Source of the DNA: a bacterium
GTDB lineage: Bacteria; Joyebacterota; Joyebacteria; Joyebacterales; Joyebacteraceae
DNA length: 64,000 bases
NCBI GenBank assembly: GCA_025774935.1
Contig: JALGZK010000014.1
Span: 1-64,000 of the forward strand
Direction: 5' to 3'
Part shown: positions 59,134 through 60,211 of the stretch, piece by piece
How the letters are laid out: each line of letters starts with the position of its first letter
Position numbering within the stretch: position 1 is the stretch's first letter
Notes under the pieces: model-generated
What the model saw: the letters and a program-made list of their open reading frames with translations, nothing else
Told to the model about the DNA's origin: nothing
Databases searched by the model: none
Position numbers and translations under genes: made by a program

Positions 59134-60211
59134 TACCGTCCGCGGGATGAGGCGGCGCGCCGGAGGGCGGCGCAGCTGATTCGCCGGCGGGTGCCTCGCC
59201 AGCAGCTACTTCGTCAGCAGCTAAGCCCGAGGGCGGGGACCTGAGGCTCGCGGGCTGGCCCGCGATGCTCACGGGCTCGGGCCCGCCCGGCTTCACGGAC
59301 GGGAACGCGCGCAGGAGCCCCTGCGTGTAGGGATGGCGCGGAGCCTGCCGGAGTTCCTGTGCGGGCGCGACCTCGGCCAGCCTGGCCGCGTAGAAGACTG
59401 CGACGCGGTCGGAGATCTGGAGCATGCGCGCGAGGTCGTGGGTGATGAAGATGACGGCGAACCCGAGCGCCGCCTGAAGCTCGCGGATGCGCTCGAGGAT
59501 CACCGTCTCCACGATGACATCGAGGGCCGTCGTCGGCTCGTCGAGAATGACGATGGACGGCCGCATCGCGAGCGCGAGCGCGATGCCGACGCGCTGCCGC
59601 ATCCCTCCCGAGAGCTGGTGGGCGAACGAGTCGAGCCGGTCCCTCGGGATCCCCACGAGATCCAGGAGCTTCCGTGCCCGCCCACGCGCCCACTCGGCCG
59701 AGGCGGCGTCGTGCGCGAGCAGGGTGTCCACGATCTGCTCCCCCACAGGGAGCGTCGGGCTCTCGGCAGGGCCCGCCCCGTGCGTCATGAGCGCCCCGGC
59801 GATCTGTTCCCCGCCTGGAGCGACGTGGCTCTCCATCGGTCCGCTGCCGTGCGCCAGCAGCGTGTCGACGATCTGCTCGCCGACCGAGATCACGGGGTTC
59901 AGGGCGTCCATCGCGCTCTGGAAGACCATCGAGATCTCCCGCCAGCGCATCTTCCTGAGCTCCTCGTCGTCCATCGCGAGGATGTCGCGCCCCTTGAAAA
60001 GGATCTCCCCGCCGGTGATGACCGCCGGCGGAGGGAGGATCCGCATGATCGCCTTCGCGAGCGTCGTCTTGCCGCTCCCCGACTCGCCGGCCACGCCGAG
60101 GATCTCGCCGGGCGCGACCGTGAGGTCGAGGTGGTCGATGGCGCGCACCGGCCCCTCGTCGGTCACGTAGTCGACGCACAGGTCGCGTATGTCGAGAAGG
60201 AGATCAGGCAT
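59105..60211 (-). CDS. ABC importer ATPase (OppD/DppD type) with triplicated insert
   Basis: 368 residues. Motifs: LGVAGESGSGKTTLAKAI (Walker A), VFQSAMDALNPVISV (Q-loop), HQLSGGMRQRVGIALAL (signature), IVILDEPTTALD (Walker B) and VIFITHDLARML (H-loop). Between Q-loop and signature there are three tandem copies of a 23-residue unit beginning GEQI(V/A)(D/G), where the family has only one. The C-terminus is a low-complexity Ala/Pro/Gly tail in place of the usual Cys-rich end. It overlaps the permease gene by 8 nt at its start and the convergent barrel-glycosidase gene by 29 nt at its end. Confidence 0.9.
   Translation of the reverse strand: MPDLLLDIRDLCVDYVTDEGPVRAIDHLDLTVAPGEILGVAGESGSGKTTLAKAIMRILPPPAVITGGEILFKGRDILAMDDEELRKMRWREISMVFQSAMDALNPVISVGEQIVDTLLAHGSGPMESHVAPGGEQIAGALMTHGAGPAESPTLPVGEQIVDTLLAHDAASAEWARGRARKLLDLVGIPRDRLDSFAHQLSGGMRQRVGIALALAMRPSIVILDEPTTALDVIVETVILERIRELQAALGFAVIFITHDLARMLQISDRVAVFYAARLAEVAPAQELRQAPRHPYTQGLLRAFPSVKPGGPEPVSIAGQPASLRSPPSGLAADEVAAGEAPAGESAAPPSGAPPHPADGTRAPRARTS
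59675..59881 (-). repeat. Three 69-bp tandem repeats in the OppD-like gene
   Basis: Residues 111-179 hold three 23-residue units starting GEQIVDTLLAH, GEQIAGALMTH and GEQIVDTLLAH. Units 1 and 3 are nearly identical in their first half, and the DNA shows matching GATCTGCTC segments on the plus strand. The reading frame is kept. Confidence 0.85.

Follow-up and report, generated by a model that had tools for sequence, protein, structure and literature searches.

The helix that joins an importer ATPase to its permease lies between the Q-loop and the signature motif and mechanically connects ATP hydrolysis with the membrane subunits. Across the family, the length of this stretch hardly varies. The window, which is the whole 64,000-nucleotide stretch of DNA analyzed here, encodes an ATPase in which the helix occurs three times over, and the question thus raised is what the additional copies mean for the coupling of ATP hydrolysis to transport. 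A sequence-only reading had suggested that coupling to the permease might be changed.

The reading of the protein as an importer ATPase was right. It matches the Pfam profiles ABC_tran (102.8 bits) and oligo_HPY (36.2 bits), both above cut-off, although the latter match reaches only position 51 of the 65 in the profile. The Walker A motif, the Q-loop, the LSGG signature, the Walker B motif, and the H-motif are all present and conserved in a 34-sequence alignment, and the closest solved relatives are Mycobacterium tuberculosis Rv1281c and the OppD and DppD proteins of Escherichia coli. The gene is encoded together with those for OppB, OppC, a solute-binding protein, and the partner ATPase OppF. 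Proteins of the OppD type power the uptake of the substrate bound by the solute-binding protein, and the same role is predicted for the window protein. None of the curated NCBIfam OppD/DppD models scored over its cut-off (the best, PRK09473, gave 241.1 bits versus a required 575), but because these models are narrow, such a score denies only the exact named equivalogs and not the wider OppD/DppD type. The protein does depart from the type in that it lacks the C-terminal four-Cys [4Fe-4S] domain and in that 104 residues separate the Q-loop from the signature, rather than the 55-61 residues that accommodate a single helix. The features of the region are listed in Table 1.

Table 1. Features of the oppD region, with positions numbered along the window
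Feature	Position	Strand	Basis or remark
OppD/DppD-type ABC importer ATPase, 368 aa, with triplicated helix	59105..60211	-	ORF; Pfam ABC_tran and oligo_HPY
Unit 1, best phase, NPVISVGEQIVDTLLAHGSGPME, residues 105-127	59831..59899	-	
Unit 2, best phase, SHVAPGGEQIAGALMTHGAGPAE, residues 128-150	59762..59830	-	fast-evolving, without docking Asp
Unit 3, best phase, SPTLPVGEQIVDTLLAHDAASAE, residues 151-173	59693..59761	-	
Asp116 codon, unit 1	59864..59866	-	alignment to DppD Glu114
Asp162 codon, unit 3	59726-59728	-	equivalent of Asp116
Aberrant OppD C-terminus: Ala/Gly/Pro/Glu-rich tail after PPSG	59105..59230	-	in place of four-Cys [4Fe-4S] domain
OppC-type permease subunit	60204..61145	-	Pfam BPD_transp_1 and OppC_N; coupling helix
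OppB-type permease subunit, ARAKGL motif	61159..62142	-	Pfam
Short-chain dehydrogenase	62155-62874	-	between oppB and solute-binding protein gene
SBP_bac_5 solute-binding protein	62932..63999	-	cut by window end
OppF-type partner ATPase	53587..54609	+	single-copy helix, four-Cys domain intact
GH1 beta-glucosidase-like enzyme	54615..55943	+	
1067-aa glycoside hydrolase, weak GH158 match	55930..59133	+	convergent with oppD, overlaps oppD 3' end
GH149-type beta-1,3-oligosaccharide phosphorylase	48370..51918	-	phmmer to 6hq6, 1067.6 bits, residues 18-1175

As had been claimed, three in-frame 23-residue units starting with GEQI (GEQIVDTLLAHGSGPMESHVAPG, GEQIAGALMTHGAGPAESPTLPV, and GEQIVDTLLAHDAASAEWARGRA) lie between the Q-loop and the signature and fill exactly positions 59675-59881. 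Read on the minus strand, they run from 59881-59813, 59812-59744, and 59743-59675. TRF alone also detects the array, at 59710-59882 with a period of 69, and its score of 154 is the highest in the window. The best phase of the repeat begins six residues before GEQI and spans 59899-59693 (NPVISVGEQIVDTLLAHGSGPME, SHVAPGGEQIAGALMTHGAGPAE, and SPTLPVGEQIVDTLLAHDAASAE), with a summed pairwise BLOSUM62 score of 175 versus 143 for the GEQI phase. In this phase the units, which sit between Gln98 of the Q-loop and the LSGGM motif at residues 200-204, share 42 (units 1 and 2), 48 (units 1 and 3), and 41 (units 2 and 3) of 69 bases. The best ungapped 69-base self-match in the oppD gene is 49 of 69 and drops to 38 when two of the units are excluded from the count; 60 codon shuffles averaged 38.9 and never exceeded 41. 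The N-terminal half of unit 1 and the C-terminal half of unit 3 resemble the single-copy form of the family, and the inner joints of the array are rich in Gly, Pro, and Ser. A mobile or interspersed element was rejected as its source, for the DNA of the insert is present only once in the genome.

Of the phylum's 20 genomes (all one family), seven contain the oppD gene. Alignment of homologues from related genomes, which had been proposed as a check, showed that G009 and G006 also carry the triplication, with the same insertion site and three-unit layout as in the window. The extra residues number 46 in G009 and 37 in G006; unit 2 is diverged in the former (AEDAVSEIARSR) and nine residues shorter in the latter, and the C-terminus of both proteins is normal, unlike that of the window protein. 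The orthologues of G016, G019, and G003 have no extra residues. Their locus order is that of the window, they are 81-86% identical to its OppD outside the insert, and they have 40 residues from MDALNPV to GIP versus 86 in the window. G007 was left unscored, its contig starting just after the site. The assertion that the family has one copy is thus accurate for nearly all homologues, but not for G009 and G006 of the same family-level group. Indeed, the distance from the Q-loop to the signature is 55-61 residues in 120 of 124 distinct Opp/Dpp-type segments, the four exceptions being the window protein (104), those of G009 (104) and G006 (95), and an unrelated protein from G057 (89) that has a different insertion in the same loop. 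A match to the whole length of the insert was obtained in only three of the 386 genomes searched, namely those of the window, G009, and G006, and searches of open-licence papers turned up no description of a docking helix that is repeated. The triplicated helix is a real, lineage-specific variant of a known ATPase. In the OppD-type gene of G057 (L015), the added DNA is a hairpin run similar to a palindromic repeat element, which is inserted in frame after GEQIKEAIEVH and contributes ~30 residues.

The genomes are drafts, with a G009 contig of no more than 3438 bases, which might point to an error of assembly or binning. Such an origin is exceedingly improbable. The units are 59-70% identical in DNA (41-48 of 69 bases), which is incompatible with mishandled identical reads, and the structure is common to three separately assembled genera with synonymous divergence. 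On this last ground an assembly artefact was rejected. The earlier argument that unit 2 has diverged and that the repeat is therefore not an artefact was borne out by the same insertion in two genomes of other genera.

When the window and G009 are compared, the first units share 59 of 69 bases and the third units 55 of 69, versus 48 of 69 between the window's own first and third units. The units are thus orthologous by position between the genera, and the triplication is older than the separation of the genera, or at any rate than that of the gene copies. Concerted evolution of the units was rejected, given that they match by position. In a tree based on rpoB and rpoC, carriers occur to either side of the midpoint root, and a group composed of the carrier genera and G008 is rejected (p 0.0001). 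The locus concatenation likewise rejects the three carriers as a single clade (p 0.009), whereas OppD alone fails to do so (p 0.38). A single clade of carriers was set aside on the strength of the first two, although OppD alone is compatible with it. Ancestral gain with later losses and transfer within the group would both fit, and the two cannot be separated.

In E. coli DppBCDF, the coupling helix of DppB is held by hydrogen bonds and by a salt bridge between Lys243 of DppB and Glu114 of DppD (PMC12136057). Glu114 aligns with Asp116 in unit 1 of the window protein, and Asp162 in unit 3 lies at the equivalent position, which in unit 2 is occupied by Gly. The ARAKGL motif of the window OppB retains the lysine that aligns with DppB K243. 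Because the counterpart of DppD Glu114 in the alignment falls inside the unit and the OppB lysine is conserved, the repeated unit is the docking helix itself, which the triplication multiplies. Its placement in the helical subdomain that contacts the permease was well founded. Both unit 1 and unit 3 retain Gln, Asp, and His at the positions where the family shows little or no variation. The E. coli DppD and OppD proteins (DppBCDF, 8z1v-8z1z; OppBCDF, 8z21) share with the window protein the fold, the ATPase motifs, the oligo_HPY region, and a docking helix bearing an acid in alignment with E114, but they contain one unit and a C-terminal [4Fe-4S] domain whereas the window protein contains three units and no such domain. 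M. tuberculosis Rv1281c (8j5q-8j5t), its best sequence match among solved structures, differs in having two ATPase domains per chain, each with a single-copy helix.

The three units have not changed at the same pace. Between the window and G009, the nonsynonymous proportion (pN) is 0.077 for unit 1, 0.379 for unit 2, and 0.124 for unit 3, with values of 0.045 and 0.080 for the flanks, and the excess of nonsynonymous change in unit 2 over the rest is significant (Fisher p = 9e-9). Unit 2 is evolving approximately five times faster at nonsynonymous sites, but the exact rate is rough because possible internal indels blur its alignment with G009. It is also the unit that is short by nine residues in G006. 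Units 1 and 3 are conserved, and unit 2 is decaying.

A structure prediction had likewise been proposed. In the AlphaFold2 model of the window protein, the core mostly displays pLDDT values above 90 and the helix of unit 1, formed by residues 110-121, is positioned in the usual place, but the remainder of the insert is without confident structure, with residues 125-167 below 50. The model of the G006 protein is much like it, and the top structural matches of the predicted OppD are E. coli OppD and DppD. Note that the alignment behind the model was shallow, with two carriers only, and the low confidence of the insert may stem from this. Note also that the aligner, in placing its gap, put the homologues over unit 1, and thus the model's choice of unit 1 rather than unit 3 for the normal position carries no independent weight.

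The coupling helices of OppB (compared in two carriers only) and OppC show no carrier-specific change beyond what other partitions of the same sequences give. There are three carrier-specific positions in OppC, a count equalled by such partitions, and co-evolved coupling helices were rejected for want of any excess there. Since these helices look the same with and without the insertion, nothing speaks positively for altered coupling, and both unit 1 and unit 3 retain the docking Asp; the proposed change in permease coupling is left unsupported. At one position, OppC 172, which immediately precedes the coupling helix, the three carriers all have His and no other aligned sequence does. This residue, together with the retained Gln, Asp, and His positions and low pN of units 1 and 3 and the survival of the insertion in three genera, would suit a functional extension, in which one helix docks onto the OppB coupling helix, the other braces the permease, the membrane, or the partner ATPase, unit 2 acts as a spacer, and coupling or assembly is modified. 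We regard that arrangement as possible but doubtful, for the three OppC positions are matched by other partitions, the coupling helices are otherwise unchanged, close relatives have one unit, and the insert was modelled without confident structure.

The probable explanation, in our opinion, is an ancient triplication in which one conserved copy docks normally, the remainder is a tolerated surface extension, and coupling is ordinary. The in-frame 69-base segment of oppD encoding the docking helix would have been tandemly multiplied to three before the genera of G000, G009, and G006 separated. One intact copy, which is unit 1 in the predicted model, would fill the normal helix position and grip the OppB coupling helix in the usual manner via its Asp and the OppB Lys. 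The other 46 residues, with their Gly/Pro/Ser-rich joints, would extend the loop that joins helices one and two of the helical subdomain. This extension would be tolerated, with which the unrelated insertion in the same loop of the G057 protein agrees, with unit 2 as a spacer under weak constraint, and transport and its coupling to ATP would stay ordinary. Against mere tolerance, the conservation of unit 3 and of the helix GEQxVDTxxAH within it comes close to that of unit 1. An additional helix that was simply put up with could do without such conservation, and thus unit 3 may have a use of its own. That unit 1 and unit 3, both equipped with a docking Asp, are two usable docking helices flanking an expendable spacer, with two registers on the coupling helix or a second surface and a modified power stroke or asymmetric coupling, seems to us improbable. 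A triplicated protein with two units kept by selection, and with single-copy sisters more than 80% identical to it, constitutes a natural test of how much change the link tolerates. Should removing the extra copies have no effect, the protein would be no more than an attractive example of a repeat expansion that is tolerated.

The missing [4Fe-4S] domain may have a greater effect on function in this genome than the repeat. Every one of the group's six sampled orthologues has the four-Cys domain. In the window the reading frame runs on instead into the convergent gene, the DNA of the tail is unique in the genome, and no remnant of the domain was observed at this gene in any of the six frames. 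The protein contains a single cysteine, residue 12, and none at the C-terminus. In E. coli, changing the cluster ligands of DppD or DppF from Cys to Ser abolished complex assembly (PMC12136057), and because the domain is lost there is doubt as to whether the window copy still works. Two other genomes of the genus, moreover, gave no match to oppD at the thresholds used. Taken together, these observations might signify that the triplication and the lost domain both mark a decaying OppD in an importer that is losing function in this genome. We consider this unlikely. All five ATPase motifs are intact, the frame is open, and pN is low outside unit 2, and several actinobacterial homologues in the 34-sequence alignment are also without the Cys domain, which is not universal. 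Moreover, G009 and G006 carry the insertion with normal C-termini, and the triplication therefore does not indicate decay.

With regard to what the importer might carry, the region from 48370 to 63999, whose gene order is conserved in relatives, looks like a conserved beta-1,3-glucan utilisation locus with GH149, GH1, and GH158-like enzymes and an Opp-type importer. The closest solved relative of the SBP_bac_5 protein is a chitin-oligosaccharide-binding protein. The substrate would most likely be beta-1,3-gluco-oligosaccharides. The distribution of the locus is patchy, as can be seen from the seven of 20 genomes with oppD and the two unmatched members of the genus of the window. The dehydrogenase gene occurs at the same spot in G003, G016, and G019 and is unmatched in G006. 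Finally, the 1067-residue protein begins with a glycoside hydrolase part at its N-terminus; its C-terminal part is long and ends in a pattern similar to that of an outer-membrane beta-barrel, and the protein is possibly a hydrolase-barrel fusion.
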